This document shows positions 3,016 to 58,721 of a stretch of DNA of 64,000 nt, one piece after another. The position numbers were made by a program, and so were the translations under genes. Each line of letters begins with the position of its first letter. The stretch's first letter is position 1. Where the stretch lies: assembly GCA_030428205.1 (NCBI GenBank), contig JAUIBK010000009.1, forward strand, positions 1-64,000, in the 5' to 3' direction. The notes under the pieces were generated by a model. The model searched no databases. It was not told the origin of the DNA and was given only the letters and a program-made list of their open reading frames with translations. Origin of the DNA: a bacterium. GTDB lineage: Bacteria; Bdellovibrionota_C; UBA2361; RFPC01.

Positions 3016-6000
3016 TTATCGAGCCTCCGTTTCTTCATGGAAAGTTAAGACCTTTACTGGCTGGTTATATAAGGTAATAGGTGTGGTAAAAGGAGTTTCT
3101 TCTGTTGTCTCTTCCTCTTCTGGGTCATCGTCATCGTCATCATCCCCATCGCAGGTTCCTTGAAAATCGCCATGCGCTTCGTGAGCAGGCCATGCATTCG
3201 CAGATACTTGGATGGTATGAGCGTTCGCCGGATTGCCTGGAGGAATGTGACAGATTGTTATCTTATTATTGTCATCATCATCGGGGCATGCTCCTTGTGT
3301 ATCACCAGCATCTAGATAGCTTTGAAGTTGAGATTCAGGAACGAGGAGAGTTTCACGTGTTTCGGGATCCCCTAGCCCATTTGGATAGTGGCAGATCTCA
3401 ACTTGTGACTCCTCTTCATCCTCATCGTCCTCGTTTTCTATTTCAACAGTAGCTATGTAAGCTGCTTGAATAACAATTTCTCCATCTTGATAGAGGGCAG
3501 AGGGGGGACCAGGAACCCCGTTAGCACCCAGAGAAGAAGCGATGGGATACAGGGCACCAGTAGAATCGTGGTATATGTCATCAAGAGAAACCTCTCCATC
3601 GTAGACGTATGGATAGGCAGCGTCTTCATCGTACTCTTCGACATATGTGTCGAGCACTGGAAGAATGAGTCCGTCGTTGTAGAGTTCCTCGACCTCTGCG
3701 CTAGTCACGCTACCGTTATCGTTTGGATCCGGGATTCCACCATTAAAAAATGGATCTCCTGCATCGAGGATATAGTCGATGACACTTGCCCCGGCTGCTC
3801 GAAAATTCACTCCTTGAATGAATCCGTGTCCTCCAACACTACAAGCATCTTGATTTGGAAGGAACGTTGAAAAAATTATATTCCCCCGGACATTAATGGG
3901 GGAGTGAGTAACCATACCTGCCGGCTTGATATAGTGGCTATCAGCAAGTTGTATGTCTGTTAAGAGAGAGATGTAAAAGCCCTGCTTGTTGTCGTTTGAG
4001 TGAAAGACTCCTTCGCCATTATCTTCGGGATTGAATGATGAAAACGATTCATTCTCTAAGTTTGATTTGGTGAGATTGCTTACTCTTCCAGCATATGAGT
4101 CGTTTGAGATGTCTACAGGATCGTAAAGGACAATAATGTCCTGTGAGGTAGTTCCTACGGTCGTTACATCTGCGTTGGTATCGTATCGCCCTGTTCCAAA
4201 CGCAACAGCAACCGCATATTGGTGTTGCTCAGGTCCGCTGGACTCCTCGCTATCGAATATGGGGTTTTCAACGAGGACCAAAGCGGCTCCTGCTGTTATA
4301 GGTTGGGAGGTTGAGCCGTCGTAGAGCTTTTCCACCGTCCAAGATGCTGGTTGGCCATCAAGGAGGATTCGATAGAGATCGCCGCTTTCTGACCCCACAT
4401 ATGCACGATCGACGTTGAGGTCGAGGTCGTTTTGAGCTACAGCGATTTTTGTAAGCCGAGTGCCCGCCGATTCAGAAGCTGATAGTGAGACTTCCGTCGG
4501 GGTAGGAACGCTACCACTTTGTATGTCATAAAGAAGAATGCTTGTTCCATGAGTGGCTTTCCCTTCGCCGGTTCCTATTGCGATGCGCCAATCAAAGTTT
4601 GCTGGGGAGATGTCTGTTGAGCCTCCTCCACTTACGATAACTACTGGTGAATTCCAACTTTCGCCGATAGTACTCTCTGGTGACACTTCAAAGAGGAGTG
4701 ACGGATTATCTCGATCAGTGATATCGAGCACAATCCAAGTGCTGCCTCCTTCAGCAAGTCCGACCATGGCAATAGTTTTCCATGTCCCATTGAAATAGAC
4801 ATCTTCTATGGAGATTTGACCGTTAACATAGTAGCGATGGTATTCGTTGTCATACGTTGGTCGAGCGAGAACCTCAAGGTGTTTGAGCAGTGTACTTGGT
4901 ATGTACGCCCAAAGCTCTTCTCCAGTTTCTGCATCAAAAGCATGTAGCATGCCGTCGTTTGCTCCAACGAGAAGAAGGTGAGGCTCATCTTCGAGGCTTT
5001 GAATGAAATTGGTATAACCGGTCATTAATTGATAGCGACCATTTCGCTGTCCAACATACCTGGGACGTGAGTAGACAATATCTCCAAGTCTATCAACGTT
5101 ACCATCGGCGTCTGCGTCCCTGGTGCGCATATTCTCAAAATCATTGCCGTGTATGTATTGGATAAGTGTTTCTGCAGACGAAGGGTTGTGATAGTTCGAG
5201 ATAGCATCGGCGAGCAGGTTTGAGTTGAGTGTATGATCATCATAAAGCTCAAAGAGAAAAGGGCGGAGCGTAGAAGCATTTGCAACGGAAAAGGAGATGG
5301 TTTGGTTTGTTTCTCCGTCACCATCTGCGTCATAGCCAGCAAATATTGTACGTGGAGAGGTGCTCAAGTCTCGTTCTTCGAGAATCTCACCAATACTAAA
5401 TTGTTTCACAAGGTTTCCGTTTACGCTGTAGTATTTATCGATATCCCCTGTCCAGTGTGCAGCTTCAAAGCGGGGGCGATAAACTTGACCGAATTCACCG
5501 AAAACTTCTGCTACAGCTACTCCTGCAGCTCCTACAGCTGTAGTCACAAGATTACTGACAATATTTTGTAAGGCTTCGGAAATTTCGTCAGAAGTATCGG
5601 CTCGAAGAGACTCTCCAGATCCTCCGTTAGCAGCAAAATCATCAAGGAGAGAGAAATCGAGGCCTAGCCCTACCGCGTAAGAGCGGATGTTTTGCATACC
5701 ATCAATGCTTGTCGCAAAATCGTTGTTGTATGCGTAGTATGAAGCATCGTCGAGAAAGTTAGCGCAAGTTTGGCTTGAGCAGTTCTTATTTCGATTGGAG
5801 CCATCTTCGTTGTCATTGTCGAAGTCGTAAATCCAGGTGCCCTTGACTTTATTATGGCTCTCACTCGAGGGAAGTCCATCGGTCAATAGGACGACAAAGC
5901 CGGAATCACACTCGTTTTCTATAGGAGAGTCGTAGTTGCAATTGTTGCAATATGGATCACGATCGCTTTCCCCAGCAAAATATCGAAGAACTTCGATGTA

Positions 6001-7113
6001 AGTATTTGCAAGTGGGGTGCCACCATAGGAGGCTAAGCCTTGAAGTTTTGTAATGAGAGTAGCGGAGTCTGTCCCAATCTCTGCGCGAATTTTAGGTTCG
6101 TCACCCTGTTGTGCATCTCCTTCTGGAGTCCACATTTGGTCGCCATAGCTTCCACTATTGTGAACTCCTGGATTATAGGTGCTACCATTGAGAGTTGATA
6201 TTCCAAAGGCAACAGAAGGGTTGTCAGTAATGAGGGCTTCAACTACCTCCTTAATAACTTCCATGCGGCTCATGCCTGGGAGATTAGCAAGTTGGGCGGC
6301 AGATGCTTCATAAAAGATCCAGCGAAGGTATTCAATGCGATACCATCCTTGTGAAAGGAAAACTTCTTTTCCATTGAAGACAACAGTTCCTCCAGTAGTG
6401 ACGAAGGCAGTTGTATTCACAGTGACCGGATCGCCGTCTTCATCGAATTTTGGCCAAATTCCATGCCAATCTCGGCCAAGTCTCACGTAGTCGTTTTTTC
6501 GGTAATCAGCATAGAGAAACTCGTTTCCATTAGTATCTTCAACGTAGCTGCCTCCGTCTGTTGCTAAATGAGCGAGTTGAAAAACGTTTGAGCCTTTGAT
6601 TGATGCATTCCCGTAGAGCTGAAAAACTCCGATGCCTTTGTATGCAGAGGGACTTCCTCCAGGACAGTATACAGAAGATCCGGAGGAGTTTGTGCATCGA
6701 GCTGCTTTTATCAGACGAGCATTGGAAGAGTTTGAAAGAGAACTTCCAGAATAGACATTTCCTCCTGAATTATACCAGAGTCCCCAGTTCATTTCGAACA
6801 GAACAGGAGTGAGAGTTTTGTTTGTCGCTGGAGCCCCCGATCCGGATTCGAGTCGAAAGAAAACAGAGGGAATAGTATTTCCAGAATCGGTGGCAGTAGC
6901 TCCCTCTGCATTAAAATCAGGATGCTCCATTACAGCATTCATCGAGCCAGAATCATCGAGGAGAAGCATTACTTTTGCATCACTTGTCTGATTGACGACA
7001 ACTGGGATGTCTTGCGCCTGAGCAGAAATTGAGAGTAGAGCAAGAAGAAAAAAAGATAATAGAACAACGCTCGCTCTCACAAGATGAGCGGGGGCAACAA
7101 CAAATTGTTTCAT
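3016..7113 (-). CDS. pilY1: PilY1-like type IV pilus tip protein with CHxPPGN tail
   Basis: This 1365-residue exported protein has a signal peptide (1-34) and a von Willebrand A domain whose MIDAS motif DDSGS is at 53-57. The second half is a PilC/PilY1-type beta-propeller with the conserved stretch VGANDGMLHAFDAETGEELW. Several Asp-rich loops, such as DADADGNVD, look like calcium sites. Known PilY1 proteins sit at the pilus tip with minor pilins and drive pilus assembly, adhesion and surface sensing. The C-terminal ~100 residues are an addition: two Cys/His units (ICHYPNG and ICHIPPGNP, each ending in a GAC or GTC) followed by poly-Asp/Glu linkers. It follows the PilX-like gene by 14 nt, in the operon order expected for PilV-W-X-Y1. 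Confidence 0.92.
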   Translation of the reverse strand: MKQFVVAPAHLVRASVVLLSFFLLALLSISAQAQDIPVVVNQTSDAKVMLLLDDSGSMNAVMEHPDFNAEGATATDSGNTIPSVFFRLESGSGAPATNKTLTPVLFEMNWGLWYNSGGNVYSGSSLSNSSNARLIKAARCTNSSGSSVYCPGGSPSAYKGIGVFQLYGNASIKGSNVFQLAHLATDGGSYVEDTNGNEFLYADYRKNDYVRLGRDWHGIWPKFDEDGDPVTVNTTAFVTTGGTVVFNGKEVFLSQGWYRIEYLRWIFYEASAAQLANLPGMSRMEVIKEVVEALITDNPSVAFGISTLNGSTYNPGVHNSGSYGDQMWTPEGDAQQGDEPKIRAEIGTDSATLITKLQGLASYGGTPLANTYIEVLRYFAGESDRDPYCNNCNYDSPIENECDSGFVVLLTDGLPSSESHNKVKGTWIYDFDNDNEDGSNRNKNCSSQTCANFLDDASYYAYNNDFATSIDGMQNIRSYAVGLGLDFSLLDDFAANGGSGESLRADTSDEISEALQNIVSNLVTTAVGAAGVAVAEVFGEFGQVYRPRFEAAHWTGDIDKYYSVNGNLVKQFSIGEILEERDLSTSPRTIFAGYDADGDGETNQTISFSVANASTLRPFLFELYDDHTLNSNLLADAISNYHNPSSAETLIQYIHGNDFENMRTRDADADGNVDRLGDIVYSRPRYVGQRNGRYQLMTGYTNFIQSLEDEPHLLLVGANDGMLHAFDAETGEELWAYIPSTLLKHLEVLARPTYDNEYHRYYVNGQISIEDVYFNGTWKTIAMVGLAEGGSTWIVLDITDRDNPSLLFEVSPESTIGESWNSPVVIVSGGGSTDISPANFDWRIAIGTGEGKATHGTSILLYDIQSGSVPTPTEVSLSASESAGTRLTKIAVAQNDLDLNVDRAYVGSESGDLYRILLDGQPASWTVEKLYDGSTSQPITAGAALVLVENPIFDSEESSGPEQHQYAVAVAFGTGRYDTNADVTTVGTTSQDIIVLYDPVDISNDSYAGRVSNLTKSNLENESFSSFNPEDNGEGVFHSNDNKQGFYISLLTDIQLADSHYIKPAGMVTHSPINVRGNIIFSTFLPNQDACSVGGHGFIQGVNFRAAGASVIDYILDAGDPFFNGGIPDPNDNGSVTSAEVEELYNDGLILPVLDTYVEEYDEDAAYPYVYDGEVSLDDIYHDSTGALYPIASSLGANGVPGPPSALYQDGEIVIQAAYIATVEIENEDDEDEEESQVEICHYPNGLGDPETRETLLVPESQLQSYLDAGDTQGACPDDDDNNKITICHIPPGNPANAHTIQVSANAWPAHEAHGDFQGTCDGDDDDDDDPEEEETTEETPFTTPITLYNQPVKVLTFHEETEAR

Positions 7114-7127
7114 AGCATATATAATCC

Positions 7128-7802
7128 TTAAGTGCCTGGTACCTCAACAACATATATGACCGTAGAGGTTCCCCTACGGCCCTTGAGTGAATTGGAAGAA
7201 ACTCCCGTCACTCGAAAACGGATACTATTAGCGCTTTCTCCTACTCCTCCGTCATTACTGAGACTCCCTCCCAAGGAGTCTTCGCTAATAAGAACTTCAT
7301 CAAGTCGCTCGACCTGTGACCAAGCGGATTGCCCATTAAGGGTGATATCTGCTACTGGGGGAGTACTTACGTCGAGTTGCTGAGTTATAGAGTAGGCTAC
7401 ATCAACCTCTTCGCCGTCAGCAGAAATCGGTCCTAGGTTTTTCAGCAAACCGCCACCTGTAGGATACATTTCTCTGTGGCATCCAAGCCCGGAGCAGGGA
7501 GGAATCCCATTATATGCGGCATAGGTAACTGGTGAGTATTCGTCGTACCCATCTGGCTCGTCGGCGAGAGGGTCCATCTCACGCCAAAGCTCTGGATTCG
7601 CTGCCATTTGTCTCATTATTTCATGAACAGCGCCTTCTGAGGAGTGGAAATTATCTTCTATGTAATTCGTTTGTACCATGGTGCGTTGGGTTGAGATGGA
7701 AATAGAAGAGAGAAGTCCGCCCATAGAAGCAATAAAAAGCACGAGGAAGAGCGCTGCAGGAAGAGCCAAACCAAGGTCATTTTGTCTATTTGCAAAGCTC
7801 AT
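7128..7802 (-). CDS. PilX-like minor pilin
   Basis: This 224-residue protein begins with a short leader ending in Gly (MSFANRQNDLG), then a hydrophobic helix LALPAALFLVLFIASMGGLL. This is the arrangement of PilX/GspK-type minor pilins, which lack the strict Phe-Glu start. The helix continues into the amphipathic segment SISISTQRTMVQTNYIEDNFHSSE typical of PilX N termini (ALxxxxTxExxxAxN). The two Cys at CSGLGC may form a disulphide. It is in tandem with PilW-like (5-nt gap) and PilY1-like genes. It probably primes the pilus tip. Confidence 0.8.
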   Translation of the reverse strand: MSFANRQNDLGLALPAALFLVLFIASMGGLLSSISISTQRTMVQTNYIEDNFHSSEGAVHEIMRQMAANPELWREMDPLADEPDGYDEYSPVTYAAYNGIPPCSGLGCHREMYPTGGGLLKNLGPISADGEEVDVAYSITQQLDVSTPPVADITLNGQSAWSQVERLDEVLISEDSLGGSLSNDGGVGESANSIRFRVTGVSSNSLKGRRGTSTVIYVVEVPGT

Positions 7803-7806
7803 TCTA

Positions 7807-8445
7807 CTACCTTACAGCCACATCTGTAGAAATAATTTGCGTAATCTCTTCACCACTGTTTGCTGTAATAGTGGTCCCGAGACTAACACGAAGTAAATTG
7901 TTGGTAATGCTAAAAATTGGTTCTTCTGCTCCGTCGCCATCGCTATCAACGGGAACAACATTTGCTGCAAGAATGAGAGCGTTATCCTCATCTGTTGGAT
8001 CGTCGGCAGGAAGCGTGCAGTTTACAGGATATGACACAGGAATCGCCCCACGTTTGAGGACCTGCTCGTCGGCATCGTACGAGTAGCCAACATAGTAAGA
8101 AGAGTAGCCATTCGTTCCGTCTGGATCGTCAAATGTGACGATAAAGCGCAGTGTAGAATTACTTGCTGTCGTGGAGCCTTGGCATGCTGAAAGGCTACTA
8201 TCGATACCAGGAAGATAGGGAGAGGTAACAGAGCTCATTTGGTATTCACTTGTGAGGAGAGCCACCGCATTCTGAACCTCCTGAGCCGCATGTGATGCTC
8301 GATGCTCTAACCCAATACGACGCATATTTACTTCTAGGTACGTTGCAATGCCGAGAGAGAGAATGCTAAAGAGTGTGAGCCCAACCATAAGCTCAGCGAT
8401 AGTAAATCCAGTCTCGTTATATGTTTCGGTCAGGTTGTAGTCCAT
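7807..8445 (-). CDS. PilW-like minor pilin
   Basis: This 212-residue protein has a prepilin leader MDYNLTETYNETG, a cleavage site before FTIAE (Phe+1, Glu+5) and a hydrophobic helix FTIAELMVGLTLFSILSLGI. This is the class III signal cut by PilD. After the helix the protein looks like PilW/GspJ in length, with one disulphide-capable Cys pair. It belongs to the tight FimT-PilV-PilW-PilX-PilY1 series and is transcribed with it (gaps of 4-5 nt). Confidence 0.82.
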   Translation of the reverse strand: MDYNLTETYNETGFTIAELMVGLTLFSILSLGIATYLEVNMRRIGLEHRASHAAQEVQNAVALLTSEYQMSSVTSPYLPGIDSSLSACQGSTTASNSTLRFIVTFDDPDGTNGYSSYYVGYSYDADEQVLKRGAIPVSYPVNCTLPADDPTDEDNALILAANVVPVDSDGDGAEEPIFSITNNLLRVSLGTTITANSGEEITQIISTDVAVR

Positions 8446-8450
8446 GTCTC

Positions 8451-8897
8451 CTAGGTTGTTTGGGCTATTACCGTTTCATAAACCGTATCTCGTTCTCCAA
8501 GTCTTATACCTCCCCGTTGGGTAGCTGCGACATTGATTCGAACTGCTTCGGGAGGGGTCTCTTCGCGAGAGCGAATTGCCGTAAAGGTAAGCGTAAATGT
8601 GGATCGTGATGCTTCGTGTGTAAAGCTTATCTGAGCTTGTTCGCCATCGGAAATGGTCGTGTAGCTTTCGTTAAACACATCGAGTGCAGAATTGAAATCC
8701 GTTCTATACTGATCAAGAACAAGTCGTATCTGTGGAACAAGAGAGCTGTGGTTTCGAGCGCTTTGATTTTTCTCATATGATGAGACAAACAGGCCGGTTG
8801 AGCCCATGACAGCAATTGAAACAAGTGAAATGGCCACGAGATTTTCGATGATAGTTGCGCCAAGTTCGTTTTGATGGATCCGTCGAATTGTTCTCAT
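8451..8897 (-). CDS. PilV-like minor pilin
   Basis: This 148-residue protein has the leader MRTIRRIHQNELG and then ATIIENLVAISLVSIAVMG. The +1 residue is Ala instead of Phe, but Glu+5 (ATIIE) is kept, as in PilV/GspI proteins. Its ATG overlaps the stop of the upstream FimT-like gene by four bases (ATGA), showing translational coupling. It likely contributes to the tip complex with the PilW- and PilX-like proteins. Confidence 0.8.
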   Translation of the reverse strand: MRTIRRIHQNELGATIIENLVAISLVSIAVMGSTGLFVSSYEKNQSARNHSSLVPQIRLVLDQYRTDFNSALDVFNESYTTISDGEQAQISFTHEASRSTFTLTFTAIRSREETPPEAVRINVAATQRGGIRLGERDTVYETVIAQTT

Positions 8898-9337
8898 AAG
8901 CTAATATATCCATTGGTATTAATTGTTAGAGAATAATTCACGCTTCCGTTTTCGATGCGGATTGTAACTGTATCAGTAGCGAGATCTGGAAGAAGACCTA
9001 ATCCATTAAAAACGACATCCGTATAGTTTTCATTCCATTCGCTGTTCTCTCCAAGTGTTAAGGTTCCATCAGTAGAACCATCGTCACCAATATCCCAGGT
9101 TGCACTACCGGTTTCGAATTCAACCCGAACGGATGTCCTGAGCCGTATCGCTTCACGGCGAAGTTCGCCAAGGGTACGTGCGAGAATTCGTGTGTCTTCA
9201 CTGACTTGCATTTGCGATTTAAAGAGGCTCATGCTCGGTAGTGCTAGGCCAATCGATACGGAGATGATGAGCATGACAACTATCAGCTCCATCATGGAGA
9301 ATCCAGATTCATTACATTGAGAAGAGAAAGGATTCAT
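8894..9337 (-). CDS. FimT/GspH-like pseudopilin
   Basis: From the ATG at 9337 this is a 147-residue protein with leader MNPFSSQCNESG and mature start FSMMELIVVMLIISVSIGL, with Glu+5. I chose this start because GGAG lies 11 bases upstream and the leader has a typical length; an in-frame ATG at 9385 would add 16 residues. The globular part with RRxAIRLRTSV and GNGLxL-like segments fits the FimT/GspH family. It is the first gene of the operon that ends with pilY1. Some FimT proteins bind DNA during uptake, but nothing here shows that. Confidence 0.8.
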   Translation of the reverse strand: MNPFSSQCNESGFSMMELIVVMLIISVSIGLALPSMSLFKSQMQVSEDTRILARTLGELRREAIRLRTSVRVEFETGSATWDIGDDGSTDGTLTLGENSEWNENYTDVVFNGLGLLPDLATDTVTIRIENGSVNYSLTINTNGYISL

Positions 9338-9507
9338 TACGAGCGATGCTCCACGCAGCCATAATTTATTTGACCAGTTTGTCATCTAGTATTTCGATCG
9401 AAATGCGTAAAAGATTGAGTGTCTTACGTCACAAAAATAGGAATGGATGCTGTTTTTTTCTGTGTATTTTTCGTAGGAATTCAGATTGAATGCTTAAAAT
9501 CAGGGGG

Positions 9508-16101: not shown

Positions 16102-18585
16102 ATGCGTCGTTATAACTTACAACTTTTTTCTCAAAGAAGGACACGCCAACATACTGGAGCTGCGTATGTTGAGGCCGCTGTTGTTCTTCCACTTCTTTTT
16201 CTTCTGATCTTCTTTGTTATTGATCTTGGGCGCTATGCCTATTCCTATATTTTTCTTCTTCGAGCCGCGCATGTTGGGGCTGACGTTTTTTCGAAATCAA
16301 TCGTAGAGACAAATACTTTTGACTGTAACTCTAACCAGACCGAGTGCGAGCAGTATGAGCTTTTCTTTCAACGTGCGGCTCAGCGTGCTATTGAAGCAGC
16401 TAGTGCCGTAGCGCGTCAGTCTGGTGCGGAAAATGGCACACGACTCATACCGTTTACTCATTATCAAGATAGCCAATCAGGAGCACTTCCATCTGGGCAG
16501 GTTACTTACGATGTGGCGGTGCTGCGTCCTGGAGAGCGTGTTAAACGGTCAGACCAAACAGTTTTTAATCACCCTACCCGTCCTTATGGTGAAATTGTTG
16601 ATACGGATGCTGGCTGGCCTGCTCCAGGACAATCCTGGCTGACCGTTCTTGAAACACATCCTGTAGCTGTTCATCTTGAAGCGAAGTTTGATCCGATCCT
16701 TCCGTTTTTTTCGAACATAACCATATCAGCCACGCAGATGGCGTATCGTCGAACTGGAAAGTTTGTTGAAGGAGCTCCTCCCGTGCCTGTTGATATCTGT
16801 GGTGATGGCGTTATAGGTGGCGGGGAAGAGTGCGACGCTCCAGATCTTCCTGGCACTCAGTGTACCTCCTGTTCCTCTGGCTGTTTATGTGTTTTCTGTG
16901 GAAATAATCGTGTTGATCAAGGAGAAGAGTGTGAAACGCACTCAGATTGCTCAGCTTATGGTCCAGGCGCTCAGTGTGATGGTTGTCAATGTAGTTGGTG
17001 TGGTGATGGCGAGGTTCAAGGAGGTGAGCAGTGTGATGATGGCAACATGAATGACGGAGATGGCTGCTCTTCTGCTTGTGTAACAGAGAATGAATGTGGA
17101 AATGGAATTCATGAGCCGGATAACGGTGAGCAGTGTGATGATGGAAACGATCAGAACAACGATGGCTGTAGCGCTTCTTGTCAGAGAGAGGGCTGTGGTG
17201 ATTCTATCGTACAAGATGGCGAAGAATGTGATGACGGAAACAACGAGCCTACCGATGGATGTGATCAGTGCGAACTTGTTGTGTGTGGAAATAATCGAAT
17301 AGATTTTGGAGAAGAGTGCGACACGAATCAACTTGATGGTCCTAACTGTGATAGCTGTAATTCAAATTGTACCTGTGCTGACTGTGGAGATGGAGCTCAC
17401 GAGCAGAGTGAAGAGTGCGACGATGGGAATAATCAGTCGGGAGATGGTTGTTCTGCCCAATGTGAGGATGAGTTTTGTGGCGATGGTACTGTACAAACTC
17501 AAGCCGGAGAAGAGTGCGATGACCACAATCAAAACAATAATGATGGATGTAGCTCTAGCTGTCAGGTAGAAGAGTGTGGTGATGGATTTTGGCAAGAGCC
17601 TCTCGGTGAGGAGTGTGACGATGGAAATGAGTATGGGTGCGATGGGTGTAGTTCCGACTGCAAACTGGAAGCATGTGGCAACGGGGTAATTGATTGTGGT
17701 GAAGAGTGCGATGATGGAAATCAGATTCCCGGAGATGGTTGCGATGCAGAATGTAACATAGAGTCGGATTTTTGCGGCAATGGTGTCCCAGAACCTGGAG
17801 AAGACTGTGATGATGGCAACCTCAATAATTGCGATGGGTGTAGCTCTGATTGCAAGGTGGAGGTTTGTGGAAACGATATCCAAGAGTGCCTCGAACAGTG
17901 TGATGATGGAAATAATAATTCTGGAGACGGTTGTTCTGCAACATGTATGAATGAGTTTTGCGGAGATGGGGTCCTTCAGCCCGGAGAAGACTGCGATGAT
18001 GGTAATGAATCATCTCAAGATGGTTGTTCCGCAGAGTGCTTCATTGAGTCTTGTGGTGATAATATCTTGCAAAGTGGCGGCACGATGCAAGAGCAGTGTG
18101 ATGATGGAAACAATGAGCCCGGTGATGGCTGTTCCGCAGAGTGTATAACCGAAGATGTCTGTGGTAATGGCATCCTGGAAGATGGAGAGGACTGTGATGA
18201 CGGAAATAACCAGAGCAATGATGGCTGTTCTGCCTCATGCTTAGAAGAAGTATGTGGTGATGGCATTACACAGAGCAACCTCAACGAAGACTGCGATGAT
18301 GGTAACAATGAAGATAACGACGGTTGTTCTGCTACTTGTATCCTAGAGATTTGCGGTGATGGTATTGTACAAAGTGCCTTAGGAGAGGACTGCGATCCTC
18401 CAGGTGCAGCTTGTGGAGGAACTTTCGAGTGTAATACTGAGTGTGTCTGTGAAGACCCATGTCCTTCGGAGTGTAATGACTACAATATTCCGTTCAATTG
18501 TGGAAATGGCGTTCAGTCCCCATTTGATTTTTGTACTTACTGTGCTGCTTGTGCTGGGTGTGTCTGTACTGGAGGAACGGGTTAG
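16102..18585 (+). CDS. TadE anchor fused to about 17 DUF4215 Cys-rich repeats
   Basis: An 827-residue protein with two parts. Residues 16-45 are a TadE-type start (TGAAYVEAAVVLPLLFLLIF) and a membrane helix, and residues up to about 230 form a TadE-like domain. From residue ~233 to the end run about 17 tandem units of the form CGxGxxxxGEECDDGNxxxGDGCSxxC, the DUF4215 pattern known from Myxococcota and other surface proteins. The many Cys would form disulphides in a stiff stalk, and the Asp/Asn-rich CDDGN loops may bind Ca2+. The ATG at 16102 has GGAGG upstream, and the stop is 10 nt before the next gene. This fusion is unusual. The repeat pattern is seen directly; the function is inferred. 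Confidence 0.8.
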   Translation: MRRYNLQLFSQRRTRQHTGAAYVEAAVVLPLLFLLIFFVIDLGRYAYSYIFLLRAAHVGADVFSKSIVETNTFDCNSNQTECEQYELFFQRAAQRAIEAASAVARQSGAENGTRLIPFTHYQDSQSGALPSGQVTYDVAVLRPGERVKRSDQTVFNHPTRPYGEIVDTDAGWPAPGQSWLTVLETHPVAVHLEAKFDPILPFFSNITISATQMAYRRTGKFVEGAPPVPVDICGDGVIGGGEECDAPDLPGTQCTSCSSGCLCVFCGNNRVDQGEECETHSDCSAYGPGAQCDGCQCSWCGDGEVQGGEQCDDGNMNDGDGCSSACVTENECGNGIHEPDNGEQCDDGNDQNNDGCSASCQREGCGDSIVQDGEECDDGNNEPTDGCDQCELVVCGNNRIDFGEECDTNQLDGPNCDSCNSNCTCADCGDGAHEQSEECDDGNNQSGDGCSAQCEDEFCGDGTVQTQAGEECDDHNQNNNDGCSSSCQVEECGDGFWQEPLGEECDDGNEYGCDGCSSDCKLEACGNGVIDCGEECDDGNQIPGDGCDAECNIESDFCGNGVPEPGEDCDDGNLNNCDGCSSDCKVEVCGNDIQECLEQCDDGNNNSGDGCSATCMNEFCGDGVLQPGEDCDDGNESSQDGCSAECFIESCGDNILQSGGTMQEQCDDGNNEPGDGCSAECITEDVCGNGILEDGEDCDDGNNQSNDGCSASCLEEVCGDGITQSNLNEDCDDGNNEDNDGCSATCILEICGDGIVQSALGEDCDPPGAACGGTFECNTECVCEDPCPSECNDYNIPFNCGNGVQSPFDFCTYCAACAGCVCTGGTG

Positions 18586-34256: not shown

Positions 34257-37200
34257 TTAGGCCGCAGAAGCGAGCTGCTCTTGTGAATCAATATACTGCT
34301 CAGGCGCTTTATACGATAGTTTACGCTCCTCCTTAGGCTTGGTCATTTCTTGTAGCCTTTGAATAAGGGCTTCAGAGCGTTCTGAAGAAAGATATGGCGC
34401 CTCCGCGGTAGGATTGGCATTGTGCAGTTTTTGACGCGTGCGTTCCATTTCTATGAATTCATTGACGTGTGTCTCAAATACATCGTTACTTGGATCTAGG
34501 CCATACATCGCATTGTAGGCTTCAGGAATATCGGCAATTTGTGCTTCGGCAATGACTTCAAGATAGACAATCATATTATGGTATTCAGCATCATCAAAGT
34601 CAGCCTCGGGAGTTGTGATGAGAGCTTCAAACGCCTGTGCTCCGCGAATATTCATTCGATCAAAACCAAATGATTCTGCATATTGTGCACGTAGTTCTCG
34701 GTTGAGTTCTTGGTAGCTTTCAGTTGCATGAATTGCTTCTTTGAGATCTCCGCTATAAGCCGTTGTCATGATAAGTGCTTGATGCTCAACGGCAATTTCA
34801 TGGCTGCTAAGAATGGCTGCAAGAGGTGGATCTTCTCCGAACGCTTCTAATGTTTTTTTCTTATACGTCGTTGTGTCTGTAACGCCCTGTTGTTCACCTC
34901 TTGAAAGCACATGATAGACAAATGCAGCTTCTTGCTCTCTAAGTTCGCGTAGATCAATCTCATTTCCAGATGCATTGGAGAGATCTTTAGCTTTTGAGTA
35001 CATCACCAGTTTGAGCGTTTCTGCTGCAAGCAAAGGATCGTTTCCATCGAGGTGATCAATGGCAGCCATTACTTGTTTTCCTCTAATCCCCAACTCGCTA
35101 GAGCTGCCTTGGTAATCGAGTGAAAGTGCAAATTGTTTTTGAGCTTTAATGAGGTTGTGCTTGAGTGAGCCTGCTTCAGGAAAATAGTGTTCAAAGGAAG
35201 CTTCTATATATTTTGCCTCCTCGGGTGTCGTGAGCGCGAGAGTCTGAACAGTATCTCCGAGTGTCTCAATCCCCTCATCGATACCTTGCTTAATCTCGAC
35301 AGCTTTTGAGAAATAGAGGAGCTCTGGCGCGTTTGCTTGTAAGAAGGTGCGAAGCTCTGAGCCGTGTCGCTCTTGATAGATGTCTCGTATGAATTCTGCA
35401 GCCCGTTTTTGTTCTTCGAGCGAACGTTGAGTGCCTTCTGTGGTTGTAGTATATGCTGCCTCAAGAATTTCTCTTACTCGCTTTTTTTGTTCTTCAAGTG
35501 GGAGCCCTTGGTCGTTTGTTATTATGGCATGAAGTTCTTCTGTCCGTTGCCAACCATTGAGCCCTAAATCAGACGAGCTATGAAATTGTCTACTATCTGA
35601 AGTCTCAAGTGTGCGCTCAAGTGCCCGCATCCCTTCTTCGCCAAATTGATTTTTGAGCATCGTTTTATAGATACGGAGTTCTTCGTCACTTGCTCCTCTT
35701 AATTCTTCTAGAAGTGCGGAAGGATCTTCATTTAACTGCTCTGCGAAGACTCTCTTGAGGTCTTCAATAGGGCTTGGAAGAGCTTCAATTTTTTTGCGTA
35801 GTTCTTCTGCTTCGAGAGAATCCTCAGGGAGAACTCCGGTGCTCGCATTTGTGCTTACTATAAGGTCGGCTATATCGCTATTATAGATAATCTGTGGTGA
35901 GAGCTGATCGATGATGTTGTCTGAGCCGAACTGATACAGGCGTACGAGCCGAGTGTTATTTTCGTGATCGACTCCTTCGATAATTCCTTCGCCAAGATCG
36001 ATGTCACGCCCCATGAGTTTGTCGTATGCTTCTATTGTGGCTTTTGCCTGATCGCGAGTAAGAAGAGAAAGCTTGGCATGAAAGACTTTTTCTAGGCGTT
36101 GTTGTGCTGTAAGACCATCGTTCCCCTTCTCCTGTGAGTGTTGCTCTCCTTCTGCAGGCTTATAAAAAACTTGATGAGTTTTTGCTCGCATGAGGAGCTC
36201 TTGAGCGACAAGTTCTGGATTAAAGGCTTTTGTTGTTGCTTCTAAGACAAATGTGCCGACCTCTTTAGAATCATCGTACCTACGTCGTACAAGTGCTTCA
36301 TAATTCGCAGGAGAGCCTTCAGGAACAACGTATGTAACTTCTTTTATTTTGGGTTTTCCATCGACGAGAACGAGTTCGCCGTTCTCATCCTTCTCATGAA
36401 TTTCAACAGGTTCTGTTTTTAATTTTTCTTCAATTTCACTTAGAACCTTCTTCCTATCTTCGTCAGAAAGAGTCATTAAGAGTTCTTGGGATCTACTTAA
36501 AGAGAGTTCGTCTTGCTCAGCTCGTTTCGTTATCTCGTCTATCGTTTTCGGATCGGTTACGATGCCTTCGGTAGTAAGAGCTGCAATGACTTCCTCGGCC
36601 CGTTGAGCCACCTGCTCTTCGTTTGTTAGGCTTGTGTGCTCTTTGGGAAGAGCTTTGATTCCTTTTTTTTCGTCGATGAGCTTATCAAGGTTTTTAGAAT
36701 GAAAAGTTTCGTTGGTTCGCTTGATTAGGTCTTCTTCACCTACGAGCTTAGCAATTTGTGCAATCTGGTCGTTTGCAGGATTGTCTTTGTCTCGTCGAAG
36801 CCCAAGAAGGTTTCGTTCAAGTGCGCGATAGTCTTCTCTATTGAGCCTATGCATGCCGTCATTGGCGAGTCCGCCTGCAAACACACCCATATAAATAGGG
36901 GCTTGACCTTTTGCAAAGCTCCCCTTGAGTGGAATGCCATCATCGGTCACCTTGAGAGTCATTCGTGTACTTATGAACGCAAAGAGCCCTGCTACTCCCG
37001 CTGTTGTGAGATTGTGCCCAAGGCTGTTCCCGGGTTGAATTGCTTGAAGATTTTCGGCAATTAACTTTGCCGCAAGCTCCTGACGTGGTTTAGTAAAACC
37101 ATCGAAGAGTCCAGTTGCAAGTTTTGCTTCTGTTTCAACATCTTCTTTGCTGAGAGTGCCTGAGGCAAAGAGTTCTTTGAAGTCTCCTCTGTCGTAGAAG

Positions 37201-37949
37201 GCATCATTCGTAAGTTTTTGTTCAATGTATTCTCTAACCGAGTATGTTTCTGTTTCTCCGGATTTATTTGTATGCTTGAGCTCTTCTTCAAAAAGTTGTT
37301 TAAACGTAATTTCGGTCATGCGCGCCAAAGCTGGCGATGCTCCATTTAACTGTAGATACATCTCATCGATAGCAGTCGCACGAGTTTCGTAATCTGAAAT
37401 ATTTTCAATGCTATCGTGAATTTTTACAGAGCGAATAGTAGCTTCAAGCTGCATACGCTTGATCTCTTCAATCAGCTTTATGGTGTCAGCTTTTCCGTCT
37501 TGGATATCAGGTTCAACTTTTTTGAGCTCCTCGATGAGCATTACCATATCTTCGTCAGAGAGCTCGCCTTCGTAGCCTGCTTCAAGAAGGAGTTTTGAGA
37601 GCTCAGCATACTTGTCTTCCTGATCGAGAGAGGCCTCTATAACTTCTGAGCCACCATAAATTGTGTTTTGTGTGATTCGTGCGGTGTCCCATGGGCCACC
37701 TGCAGAGAGAAGAGATACGTCAGTTGAGCTAAACGCACTGGGCGCTTGTGCGCCAATACCAGAGGTGCGTTGGAGGGCAAATAATTCACTGTTTGCTGTT
37801 TGAGCAGCCTCATAGCTACCAGAGGAATCCTGCCCCCCGGCATAAATCATGTCTTCATAACCAGAGAGATGAGATTCTGCACTCTCGGCGTCAGCTATTT
37901 GGTGATCATCAGCAGGACGATTGTTGTGGTCGAAATCTTGTGGAGCCAT
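34257..37949 (-). CDS. Giant helical repeat protein, annexin-like segments suspected
   Basis: A 1230-residue, mostly helical, acidic protein with no signal peptide and at most one or two hydrophobic stretches (TTAGVAGLFAFISTRM near 310-330). Segments such as IEAYDKLMGRDIDLGEGI (about 640), plus ALIMTTAYSGDLKEAI and EAYNAMYGLDPSNDVFE near the C terminus, recall the annexin-repeat end ('IxxxYxxxYGxDLxxxI'). The classic calcium-binding GxGTD loops are not visible. The first 110 residues are disordered and rich in Ser, Gln and Asp. No family is firm. It is alone between trmB and a glycine-zipper lipoprotein gene. Confidence 0.6.
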   Translation of the reverse strand: MAPQDFDHNNRPADDHQIADAESAESHLSGYEDMIYAGGQDSSGSYEAAQTANSELFALQRTSGIGAQAPSAFSSTDVSLLSAGGPWDTARITQNTIYGGSEVIEASLDQEDKYAELSKLLLEAGYEGELSDEDMVMLIEELKKVEPDIQDGKADTIKLIEEIKRMQLEATIRSVKIHDSIENISDYETRATAIDEMYLQLNGASPALARMTEITFKQLFEEELKHTNKSGETETYSVREYIEQKLTNDAFYDRGDFKELFASGTLSKEDVETEAKLATGLFDGFTKPRQELAAKLIAENLQAIQPGNSLGHNLTTAGVAGLFAFISTRMTLKVTDDGIPLKGSFAKGQAPIYMGVFAGGLANDGMHRLNREDYRALERNLLGLRRDKDNPANDQIAQIAKLVGEEDLIKRTNETFHSKNLDKLIDEKKGIKALPKEHTSLTNEEQVAQRAEEVIAALTTEGIVTDPKTIDEITKRAEQDELSLSRSQELLMTLSDEDRKKVLSEIEEKLKTEPVEIHEKDENGELVLVDGKPKIKEVTYVVPEGSPANYEALVRRRYDDSKEVGTFVLEATTKAFNPELVAQELLMRAKTHQVFYKPAEGEQHSQEKGNDGLTAQQRLEKVFHAKLSLLTRDQAKATIEAYDKLMGRDIDLGEGIIEGVDHENNTRLVRLYQFGSDNIIDQLSPQIIYNSDIADLIVSTNASTGVLPEDSLEAEELRKKIEALPSPIEDLKRVFAEQLNEDPSALLEELRGASDEELRIYKTMLKNQFGEEGMRALERTLETSDSRQFHSSSDLGLNGWQRTEELHAIITNDQGLPLEEQKKRVREILEAAYTTTTEGTQRSLEEQKRAAEFIRDIYQERHGSELRTFLQANAPELLYFSKAVEIKQGIDEGIETLGDTVQTLALTTPEEAKYIEASFEHYFPEAGSLKHNLIKAQKQFALSLDYQGSSSELGIRGKQVMAAIDHLDGNDPLLAAETLKLVMYSKAKDLSNASGNEIDLRELREQEAAFVYHVLSRGEQQGVTDTTTYKKKTLEAFGEDPPLAAILSSHEIAVEHQALIMTTAYSGDLKEAIHATESYQELNRELRAQYAESFGFDRMNIRGAQAFEALITTPEADFDDAEYHNMIVYLEVIAEAQIADIPEAYNAMYGLDPSNDVFETHVNEFIEMERTRQKLHNANPTAEAPYLSSERSEALIQRLQEMTKPKEERKLSYKAPEQYIDSQEQLASAA

Positions 37950-52091: not shown

Positions 52092-52285
52092 GCGCAATGT
52101 ATGGCGTGATCGACGTATGTTGTCAAATAGTCTCAATATTTTCAGAAGAGAGAGATTTGATGGAGATTGCTCATGTTAAGTAACGCCGCTCTCAAGCTAG
52201 TAATAACTAGTTATAGAACAGCGAGAGTTTGGTACGAACTCCACGATATTTCAAATTTCATAGGTTTTTCACAGGTTTATTATAC

Positions 52286-52780
52286 ATGAATCATAAGTCT
52301 CCCCTGCTCGGGAATGCGGTTTCCGATATCATCAATCAACATCAATTGAATGCCAATAATCTTTCCCAAAAGAGGCATAAAGCTCCTAAAAAAGGAAACA
52401 TGAAACGAGAGCTGGAACTTGCCCTAACGGTGCTACTCGTAGATCTCGCCTCAAGCGATCAGAATTTTGACCAAGTTGAATATCATGTCATGACTGCTGG
52501 ATTAAATCGGCTTTTTGGTACAGGAAAGACGGAGGTGTCAGCTCTCGTCAACCAAGCTCAAACAATTTTAAAAAATCTCCGTGGTGTCAGTAAGTATGCA
52601 GAGGTTCTTAAGACAAACCTCTCCCTTGAGCAGCGCAAAGTTATTCTTGAAGTGATTGATGACGTCATTCACGCTGACGGGGAAGTAGATGGATTTGAAA
52701 CGTACCTGAGACATAAGTTCGCCGATCTGATTGGGGTCTCTCTTGAGCCACACCAAGACCCTAATGAGAAACACGAATAA
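52286..52780 (+). CDS. TerB-like protein
   Basis: A 164-residue protein with a polar N-terminal extension and a helical TerB domain (ELALTVLLVDLASSDQNFDQVEYHVMTAGLNRLFG ... EVIDDVIHADGEVDGFE). Two acidic helix-turn-helix repeats (DQNFDQVE and DGEVDGFE) match the tellurite-resistance TerB metal-binding pattern. ATG 52286. It is followed by a terminator-like hairpin, so it is probably a single-gene unit. Confidence 0.75.
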   Translation: MNHKSPLLGNAVSDIINQHQLNANNLSQKRHKAPKKGNMKRELELALTVLLVDLASSDQNFDQVEYHVMTAGLNRLFGTGKTEVSALVNQAQTILKNLRGVSKYAEVLKTNLSLEQRKVILEVIDDVIHADGEVDGFETYLRHKFADLIGVSLEPHQDPNEKHE

Positions 52781-53026: not shown

Positions 53027-53281
53027 ATCGCGGCCCCCTACGAAATCTTCGTAATCCCACTCATTCCAAAACATTTCCGCCCCCATCTCTACAGCTACCC
53101 GCTATCTTGCCGATTCTGTAATCAAGAGCTCGCAGGCTCAGATAAGGAGAAAAAGGATAGCTTTGCCTACATTGTTGAACTGACTTGATATCCTCCTAAT
53201 TGGAGAGATCAAGAATTTACGGAAGAACGCTTTCTCTTGCCCAACTATGAAAGAGAAAGAGAGCGACAATGAGGTTGTGTA

Positions 53282-54061
53282 ATGAGTAGTATCGACTCCA
53301 AATTTATTCTCTCATCGATTAATAAGAGCACCAAGAGTGTAAAGAGCGCTTTTACTAAGCTAGCGTCTGGAAAGCGTATTAATAAAGCAAGTGATGATGC
53401 CGCTGGGCTAGCTATTGCTGATGCTCTCAAGTCTGACGCGGCAGTTTATCAACAAGCATCTAGAAATACGAGTGACGGACAATCTCTTGCTGCGATTAAA
53501 GAAGGAGCGCTCACTCAAGCAGGAGATATCGAGATTCGGAAACGAGAGCTTGCCACACAGGCAGCAAACGGAACGTTGAGTGACGAGCAAAGAGCGTCTC
53601 TTAATCAAGAGTATCAAGCACTTTCACAAGAGCAGCAACGTATTGTTGCCACCACTGAATTTAATGGTCGGAATGTGTTTCAAGGTGAAACCTCAATTGA
53701 AGTAGATAGCGGAACGCAGATAACGATAGAAGGAAGCGAGCTTTCGTTTGTCGATAGTCCAGGAGACATCTCAACGCAAGCTGGGGCTTTAAGTGCGGTA
53801 GATCAATCAGAGGGTAATATACAATCTTTTGCACAACAGAAAGGACGGATTGGAGCCGAAACAGCTCGGCTGGAAGTAGCTGGAAGAAGGGCTGAAGATA
53901 GTGCCGTGGAAAACTTGGCCGCTGAGAGCCGTATTCGTGATGCAGATGTTGCAACTGAAGTTGCAAATCTCACTGCAGGAAAGATACTACAACAGGCTGG
54001 TCTCGCTGTTCAGGCTCAAGCCAACCAAACCGCAACAAATGTCTTAAACCTTCTCAAGTAA
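53282..54061 (+). CDS. Minimal flagellin
   Basis: A 259-residue flagellin with the conserved D0/D1 ends: N-terminal KLASGKRINKASDDAAGLAIADAL and C-terminal SRIRDADVATEVANLTAGKILQQAG...NVLNLLK. The central D2/D3 domain is almost absent, so it is a short flagellin. GAGG seven bases before ATG 53282. Directly followed by a partner-like gene 16 nt later. No other flagellar structural genes are in this window; a FliA-like sigma factor is at 57981. Confidence 0.92.
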   Translation: MSSIDSKFILSSINKSTKSVKSAFTKLASGKRINKASDDAAGLAIADALKSDAAVYQQASRNTSDGQSLAAIKEGALTQAGDIEIRKRELATQAANGTLSDEQRASLNQEYQALSQEQQRIVATTEFNGRNVFQGETSIEVDSGTQITIEGSELSFVDSPGDISTQAGALSAVDQSEGNIQSFAQQKGRIGAETARLEVAGRRAEDSAVENLAAESRIRDADVATEVANLTAGKILQQAGLAVQAQANQTATNVLNLLK

Positions 54062-54077
54062 TATATAGGAGGAGATC

Positions 54078-54824
54078 ATGAAGATCGGTTCCCCCCTTGC
54101 CACCCCGTTTCTTTCAAATCTATCCTCTGCCACTAAAGCAGATAGATCTGAAACGAAAGTTCGGATTGAAGGACAGGATAACGACATTCTTGATGTAACT
54201 CGCAGTTCACAAAGTGAGGGCGCAAGCCTTTCTGCTAGTAAAGCAAAGAGCTCTGCAGAGGTCGCGGATGAAGCTACAAAAGCAATTTACGATATCCGAC
54301 AAGAACAGCTTGCTTTGGCAAAGCAAGCCAACGATATTAACGACGAGGAAACGCGGGCAACGTATCAAGCCGAAATAGATAATCTTCAAACGGAAGTTAA
54401 TCGTATCTCCGCCGAGGAAGATGGAGCAGGAAATAATGTGCTCGATGAACTTTCACTTGAAGTCTCCGAGGATACACAGCTTGTCCTCTCTGATCGCTCT
54501 TCGCTTGCGAGCGATCCCGGTATCGATGTGTCAACTATCTCTGGTGCCAGCAGTGCCGTTGCTACTCTGACGGATGCTGTTGACTCCGCACAGAGCGCAA
54601 GAACAGCAACATCTGCTACGAAGGATAAGGCTGAAGCTAAGCTTGAAGAAATTGTCGCAAGAGAAGCTGAAGCTCGGCTTGGAGATTCAAGTAAGATTCA
54701 AGACGAACAAGAAGCTGAGAAAGTTGCTAAAGATATCGCCACGCAGGTAGTGAACAAAGCTCAAGAAGATGCTGTTGTTTCGAATCTTGTCTCTGGACAG
54801 GTGGAGTCGCTTTTAAGCGGATAA
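54078..54824 (+). CDS. Degenerate flagellin-like partner protein
   Basis: A 248-residue protein 16 nt after the flagellin gene with GGAGG before ATG 54078. Its middle follows the flagellin pattern: IRQEQLALAKQANDINDEET and NRISAEEDGAGNNVLDELSLEV align with the flagellin's RELATQAANGTLSDEQ and QRIVATTEFNGRNVFQGETSIEV. The C-terminal end NLVSGQVESLL echoes NVLNLL. The strictly conserved N-terminal D0 motif is replaced by other sequence. It may be a secondary flagellin, a hook-junction-like protein or a remnant. It overlaps the convergent GNAT gene by 12 nt. Confidence 0.6.
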   Translation: MKIGSPLATPFLSNLSSATKADRSETKVRIEGQDNDILDVTRSSQSEGASLSASKAKSSAEVADEATKAIYDIRQEQLALAKQANDINDEETRATYQAEIDNLQTEVNRISAEEDGAGNNVLDELSLEVSEDTQLVLSDRSSLASDPGIDVSTISGASSAVATLTDAVDSAQSARTATSATKDKAEAKLEEIVAREAEARLGDSSKIQDEQEAEKVAKDIATQVVNKAQEDAVVSNLVSGQVESLLSG

Positions 54825-57980: not shown

Positions 57981-58721
57981 ATGAGTTCAACGTATAAACG
58001 ACAACGTCGTTATTTTCGAGAGGGCCTAAGACGAGCCGGTGGAGCTGCTCAGTGCCGGCGTCCCTCGAATGTTATTGATTTCCCTAAAAAAGAACAGAAA
58101 ATTCCTCCCGAGCCATCTCGTGATGATATTACTACCTATATGCCACTTGTTGAGGTGCTAGCTCGACGCATTCTCAATAAAGGATATTTCTCGCGAGCTC
58201 TGCTTGAGGACCTTGTGTCTGTTGGACGTGTTGTACTTTGTGAGTCTTTTCAGCGGTATAAAGAGCTCTCAGATGAGCACTTTCACAAAAGCGTGATTGT
58301 AAGGGTGCGAGGTGAGATGATCGATTATCTCAGGCGCCCAGACCACCGTTTTTCACGCTTTGCCCTCCGCGTGCGAGTTGATTTTTCTACGTCACCCTGT
58401 GGAACCCAAGAGGCGGACAGGAACGAGGAGTCTCTTGGAAGATATGTTGAGCCTGCGCTTCGGACAATGCAGACACCTGAAAGGTGCTGCACAAGAAAAG
58501 AGCTCTACTCTCACTTACACAAAGCTATCACTGGGCTTCCCTCAGAAGAGCGTGGAGTCATAGAACGTGTGTATTTTCAGGAAGCTGCGGCTACTGAGGG
58601 AACCGCCTTAAAACGCTCTCATGCCTCAAAGATAAAGCGACGAGCTCTCAAAAAGATAAAGCGTTCTCTTGATAGCCGTTTTACTCGTGAAGATGCCTGG
58701 CTACACCTTGTTCAGGATTAA
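57981..58721 (+). CDS. FliA-like sigma factor
   Basis: A 246-residue sigma-70-family protein. Region 2 is DITTYMPLVEVLARRIL...LLEDLVSVGRVVLCESFQRY...VRGEMIDYLRRPDH, and region 4 is ITGLPSEERGVIERVYFQEAA...SHASKIKRRALKKIKRSL. The HTH is about five residues shorter than in FliA, so recognition of -35 may differ. Region 3 is short. The start at ATG 57981 is preceded by AAGG. It most resembles FliA (sigma-28) or WhiG types. With flagellin in the same window, a flagellar role is likely but not shown. Confidence 0.72.
   Translation: MSSTYKRQRRYFREGLRRAGGAAQCRRPSNVIDFPKKEQKIPPEPSRDDITTYMPLVEVLARRILNKGYFSRALLEDLVSVGRVVLCESFQRYKELSDEHFHKSVIVRVRGEMIDYLRRPDHRFSRFALRVRVDFSTSPCGTQEADRNEESLGRYVEPALRTMQTPERCCTRKELYSHLHKAITGLPSEERGVIERVYFQEAAATEGTALKRSHASKIKRRALKKIKRSLDSRFTREDAWLHLVQD

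Follow-up and report, generated by a model that had tools for sequence, protein, structure and literature searches.

The adjacent genes flaX (53282..54061, + strand) and flaY (54078..54824, + strand), located in the 64,000-nucleotide stretch of DNA analysed here (called the window), encode a minimal flagellin-like protein and a paralogue of it that retains the D1 region only. This anatomy, that is, a D1-only flagellin paralogue conserved beside FlaX in an operon with a terB-like gene and minor pilins, is well supported and we consider it close to certain. The function is a more tentative matter. The reading that we favour, although we would place it somewhat short of an even chance, is that the two proteins constitute a non-filament flagellin pair that leaves the cell through the flagellar type III apparatus and acts at the surface, next to the tip of a pilus. 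The window belongs to a draft genome of 3.76 Mb from an uncultured bacterial phylum, called G000 below, in which about 15 further full flagellins, two FliD genes (G000:C67) and FliS are encoded apart from flaX and flaY.

FlaX has 259 amino acids and contains the D0 and D1 regions without D2/D3, as seen from its matches to both Pfam Flagellin_N (E 2e-31) and Flagellin_C (E 3.6e-14) and from its position in the tree discussed below. FlaY has 248 amino acids and has lost both D0 signatures. Its match to Flagellin_N begins only at profile position 56, with an E value of 1.7e-5 and a score of 25.3 bits that is slightly under the cut-off of 26.6 bits. The flaX stop and the flaY start are separated by 16 nt, and the gap contains a ribosome-binding site, GGAGGAG. 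The original prediction had described a minimal flagellin followed, at this short distance, by a degenerate flagellin-like protein, and both reading frames and their tight linkage are confirmed here. An option that was considered and rejected is a FlaX-FlaY fusion made by stop-codon readthrough; the two genes are in frame in two relatives (G003 and G005), but the pair in the window is out of frame.

The relationship of FlaY to flagellins becomes clear when its orthologues are used together. Their profile matches the solved flagellins 6b5b (E 9.8e-13) and 9hpz (E 1.2e-9, profile positions 35-252), and with hhalign the profile aligns to that of FlaX (E 1.5e-14) better than to that of the filament flagellins (E 4.7e-10). 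Judged from its sequence, FlaY is thus a true flagellin homologue, beyond chance. To locate the similarity, segments of FlaY and FlaX were compared to filament flagellins, with z given relative to shuffled sequence, for the eight FlaY orthologues. The central D1 hairpin is kept (residues 45-125), and the ND1 segment has z values of 7-14 in all eight orthologues, which bears out the flagellin-like centre proposed originally for the downstream protein. CD1 shows a weak similarity, with z of about 0-4. Both FlaX and FlaY thus possess the D1 helical hairpin (ND1a/ND1b, CD1) of a flagellin. The N-terminal D0 and export-signal region, on the other hand, is not recognisable in FlaY, with z below 2 in seven of the eight orthologues; the exception is G005, with 6.3 for the first 45 residues and 2.6 for the aligned segment. 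The proposed loss of the N-terminal D0 was therefore correct but incomplete, since the C-terminal D0 signature has gone as well (seven orthologues have z of about 0-2 and one has 4.2). At the C-D0 position, the helix length alone is kept, and a residual likeness to FlaX, rather than to filament flagellins, can be observed there (z up to 5.9).

An AlphaFold2 model of FlaY, built from a three-row alignment, has helices at residues 40-86, 90-124, 154-201 and 210-247, corresponding to the order ND1a-ND1b-CD1-CD0. The mean pLDDT is 58, with values of ~81-94 in the blocks of the ND1 hairpin (residues 61-110), 76-90 at residues 141-180, and below 50 at residues 1-48 and 202-248. In a Foldseek comparison of this model with the PDB, the best 25 matches are all flagellins; the best E value is 2.7e-3 and none is below 0.001, so that the assignment of the fold rests on match rank and sequence jointly. 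On this basis, the nearest fold to the predicted structure is flagellin, as the original prediction would have it, and not an unrelated one. Both the FlaY profile and Foldseek also match the cell-surface flagellin homologues 2zbi, 3k8v and 3k8w, which display the flagellin fold at the surface and which we take to be surface polysaccharide receptors. Those constructs were trimmed experimentally (N20C20 etc.), whereas FlaY has lost its D0 sequence by evolution.

Several other identities were considered for the two proteins. A FliD-like cap, which had been one of the original suggestions, is disfavoured, since no FliD family (FliD_N/FliD_C) is found among the Pfam matches of FlaY and the genome has two full, ordinary FliD caps elsewhere. 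FlgL/HAP3 (TIGR02550) was rejected too; FlaX matches it weakly, with 83.3 bits against a cut-off of 127.2, and FlaY has no match. Comparison of FlaY with PHROGs gave no match, and that with a viral structure library no meaningful one.

Intact FlaY is found in eight genomes of three families, namely in the six that make up family f1, one of f8 (G012) and one of f13 (G018). Of the 46 genomes of the phylum, the remaining 38 show no FlaY match at E 1e-15. A search of 97 genomes, including distant ones, gave weak matches alone beyond the FlaY set, and those inspected are ordinary flagellins, while a contig search with the three-row FlaY alignment found two relatives and no others. In seven of the eight genomes FlaY adjoins the 3' side of FlaX, so the pair is conserved in relatives, as had been proposed for checking. 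The spacing varies from a 4-nt overlap (G004) through 6 nt (G003 and G005), 11 nt (G001), 15 nt (G018) and the 16 nt of the window to 43 nt (G012). In the remaining genome, G002, flaY is on a separate contig from the operon, with flaX still behind terB; a 131-codon reading frame (L109:5933-6328) without Pfam or FlaY match occupies the usual slot of flaY right after flaX.

The phylogenetic tree places FlaY in one clade (support 100/99) that branches among the FlaX sequences, the deeper branching of which is weakly resolved. The filament-type flagellins form a clade of their own (97/98), two odd rows excepted, and FlaX is separate from this main clade. FlaY has long branches, and its identity to the orthologues is 27-36%, except for 19% to G018. 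The branch lengths show no obvious co-acceleration of FlaX and FlaY, with G004 and G018 running opposite ways. 

FlaX itself varies among the relatives. Near-complete D0/D1 regions are present in G000, G007, G008, G011, G012 and G018, and the protein decays at one or the other end in G003, G005, G004 and family f11. The N-terminal D0 and export-signal region is retained in most genomes and lost in G004, where the N-terminal half is gone (N45 z -1.3) and C-D0 is still recognisable (C46 z 12.6). The C-terminal D0 signature is likewise retained in most genomes and weak in part of f11. For three f11 pairs the dN/dS ratio is 0.06-0.18, with dS partly saturated, and by this measure FlaX evolves under purifying selection in these pairs.

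We now turn to the genes surrounding the pair. On the grounds of gene order and orthology, FlaX, with or without FlaY, is assigned to an operon that is conserved throughout the order and composed of terB, flaX, (flaY) and four GspH/I/J/K-like minor (pseudo)pilins. This context lies outside the two-gene segment covered by the original prediction and was not seen there. The first gene is terB-like (PF05099; 52286..52780, +), with a Pfam TerB match of E 1.9e-13 and orthologues that precede flaX in other genomes of the order; its start codon is uncertain and could be TTG at 52229 or ATG at 52286. P1 (59502..59936, +) is a GspH/FimT-like minor (pseudo)pilin with a weak Pfam GspH match (E 4.5e-5). 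Its orthologue is directly 3' of flaX or flaY in the relatives, and in the window inserted genes intervene after flaY. P2 (59885..60178, +) is a short prepilin-like reading frame at the GspI/PilV position with a prepilin-like hydrophobic N-region, matched in relatives by place and length. P3 (60096..61022, +; orthologue HMM 361.6 bits) and P4 (61019..61774, +; 262.3 bits) occupy the GspJ/PilW and GspK/PilX positions, respectively; neither has a convincing Pfam match, and they are named from position and mutual orthology only.

In the relatives, flaX has a TerB-domain gene on one side and, on the other, prepilin-like genes ordered GspH-I-J-K (FimT-PilV-PilW-PilX). The arrangement terB-flaX-P1-P3, with P4 where the contig extends, is found in f1 (G000, G001, G003, G004, G005), f3 (G007), f4 (G008), f8 (G012), f13 (G018) and eight f11 genomes (G015, G019, G020, G021, G022, G023, G025, G026). 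G002 has these genes too, with insertions among them. In two flagellated genomes, G017 and G027, terB-P1-P3 occurs and flaX is missing from its usual position; G017 has a FlaX-like gene elsewhere. The literature searched contains no flagellin-like/minor-pilin operon and no TerB-pilus-flagellin link.

A weak candidate for a sigma-28-like box, TACA-N15-GCCGATTC (53090..53116, +; 9/12 matches in a consensus scan), is located 5' of flaX. In the set of flaX upstream regions the scan gives 8.84 compared to 7.86 (sd 0.13) for shuffles, and in the terB control 8.50 compared to 8.12 (sd 0.17). However, the upstream regions of the filament flagellin genes do not score above shuffles, and no regulatory conclusion is therefore drawn from these boxes.

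Some further observations concern the surroundings and the other flagellins. Between flaY and the pilins, the window encodes a FliA/WhiG-like sigma factor (57981-58721; 67 bits against a cut-off of 189.6), which the loci examined in relatives do not have at the corresponding position. A second group of minor-pilin genes, at 3016-9385, includes one for a PilY1 protein of 1365 aa (PF05567) and more prepilin-like reading frames. In G000 a minor-pilin set of the PilY1 type thus accompanies one of the FlaX type, at a distance of about 45-50 kb. A reading frame at 16102-18585, beside TadE-like ones, is rich in Cys-rich 'CGDG..QCDDGN' repeats. Seven flagellin reading frames of about 620-650 aa occur on G000 contigs, including L007 and L009, and in the two that were inspected the variable region contains inserted FG-GAP-like 'DFNGDGIDDI' repeats. 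On L020 (G073), a flagellin has an insert that, judged by eye, resembles a von Willebrand A domain ('DIVWIIDNSGSMGG').

As to a connection with the flagellum, one relative (G014) keeps terB-P1-P3-P4 but lacks flaX, and neither a Flagellin_N match nor an FlhA of the flagellar class is present in it; this is a single case, in a genome of 91% completeness. The composition of the proteins is also of relevance. Flagellar axial proteins are poor in cysteine, and 19 FlaX (5156 aa) and 8 FlaY (2056 aa) contain neither Cys nor Trp in 7212 residues, compared to 1.57% Cys in the long reading frames of the window. The naive chance of a Cys-free FlaY, 8e-15, ignores ancestry and composition and is not to be taken literally. 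The absence of Cys and Trp fits what is expected for exported flagellar proteins, although ancestry and a coiled-coil composition can explain part of it. Likewise free of Cys is a reading frame of 1230 aa at 34257-37949, which has no Pfam match and is possibly secreted. Export of FlaY is uncertain, because the protein has lost the part that corresponds to the known flagellin export signal. The minor pilins would use another route, that is, Sec and prepilin peptidase, and the co-location may mean co-expression only.

In the mechanism that we favour, FlaY would have been born by duplication inside the FlaX lineage and then cut down to the D1 hairpin bundle, with loss of both D0 ends needed to polymerise, such that probably neither protein is still an ordinary filament subunit. 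The two genes adjoin each other in an operon that also encodes a TerB-domain protein and the minor pilins that would form a pilus tip, and their products would leave the cell via the flagellar type III apparatus. FlaY would bind FlaX through D1, and it may be the dedicated binding partner named among the original suggestions; an AlphaFold2 model of the G003 FlaX-FlaY fusion, with G005 as second row, has a pTM of 0.37, too low to tell anything about such binding. Outside the cell, the pair may serve in surface contact as an adhesive or as part of the matrix, without forming a filament, and would be deployed along with the pilus tip. Counted against this mechanism are the location of flaY away from the operon in G002 and the many FlaX genomes without FlaY.

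There are precedents for parts of this proposal. FlaE and FlaF of Vibrio vulnificus are reported to be flagellin-homologous proteins exported through the flagellar channel and kept out of filaments, with FlaE co-transcribed with the flagellin gene flaD and a non-motility role in the biofilm matrix and exopolysaccharide binding (PMC6692518). Like them, FlaX and FlaY are flagellin homologues in a genome with other, filament-type flagellins; the link of FlaX and FlaY to a terB/minor-pilin operon and the double D0 loss of FlaY are not described for the Vibrio proteins in the literature searched. Vibrio offers a precedent for export, while export and role of FlaX and FlaY are putative. FlaC of Campylobacter jejuni is small, without central domain, secreted and without motility role according to the reports on it (PMC4863622, PMC5466977), and in the literature searched no D1-only partner gene or pilin operon is mentioned for it. 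Its anatomy is the same minimal one as in FlaX, and its termini, homologous to FlaA/FlaB (PMC8306008), are retained, whereas those of FlaY are not.

There are several alternatives to this mechanism. D0 builds the core of the filament, and polymerisation depends critically on the termini (PMC8306008). A place for FlaY among the filament subunits is therefore unlikely, and the same applies to the G004 FlaX. The originally suggested minor flagellin is for this reason disfavoured for FlaY, and the original interpretation as a whole is partly supported. One could instead envisage FlaX as a minor filament flagellin, for example of a basal or junction segment, and FlaY as a partner attached to the filament, which would bind D1 on its outer side or end growth. 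The near-complete FlaX of the genomes listed above and the mild enrichment of sigma-28-like boxes would agree with this, but the decay of FlaX ends in several lineages, the roughly 15 further flagellins and the two FliD caps already encoded, and the linkage to pilins instead of flagellar genes make it quite improbable.

A scenario without secretion, which we also regard as unlikely, has FlaX (via C-D0) and FlaY acting as a cytoplasmic decoy or sensor that binds regulators or chaperones of flagellin (FliS or, if encoded, FliW), by which flagellin export would be tuned against pilus expression. C-D0 is the chaperone-binding part of flagellins, and its persistence in the ruined G004 FlaX, the presence of FliS, the missing export-signal region of FlaY and the TerB-domain gene opening the operon are all in line with such a role. 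However, FlaY has itself lost the C-D0 signature, the lack of Cys and Trp is a better fit to exported proteins, and most FlaX keep the N-D0 and DDAAGLAI region, which a cytoplasmic decoy does not need. Export by another machinery was considered as well. In all 29 genomes of the order, the FHIPEP export gates usually fall into three classes per genome (about 860, 550-600 and 430 bits), which suggests two non-flagellar type III systems beside the flagellum. That FlaX and FlaY are substrates or needle/tip parts of one of these is very unlikely, as both non-flagellar gates are kept in G014, which has neither FlaX nor flagellum, and no linkage to those loci was seen. Finally, FlaY could be a decaying duplicate, a functionless evolutionary leftover, with which its low identity, long branches and lost D0 ends would be compatible. 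This we find barely credible, and a pseudogene was rejected: the reading frame is intact at 247-284 codons in eight genomes of three families, without frameshift, its ND1 segment is conserved, and it stays directly 3' of flaX in seven of them.

A more far-reaching form of the favoured mechanism, to which we assign a low probability, is a two-protein extracellular flagellin device in which one subunit consists of nothing but the D1 bundle. The flagellum would export this device, which would work with the minor-pilin tip and thereby couple both appendages. In the literature searched, there is no flagellin homologue that is fixed in a minor-pilin operon across families and has a partner lacking both D0 ends, and non-filament flagellins are so far known from a few pathogens. 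If the proposal is true, the operon would functionally couple the flagellum and the type IV pilus in surface contact, and the pair would give a natural test of the D1 domain alone and of a direct flagellum-pilus link. The gradient from FlaX alone, through FlaX with FlaY, to the G004 FlaX losing its N-terminus shows stages of a flagellin quitting the filament.
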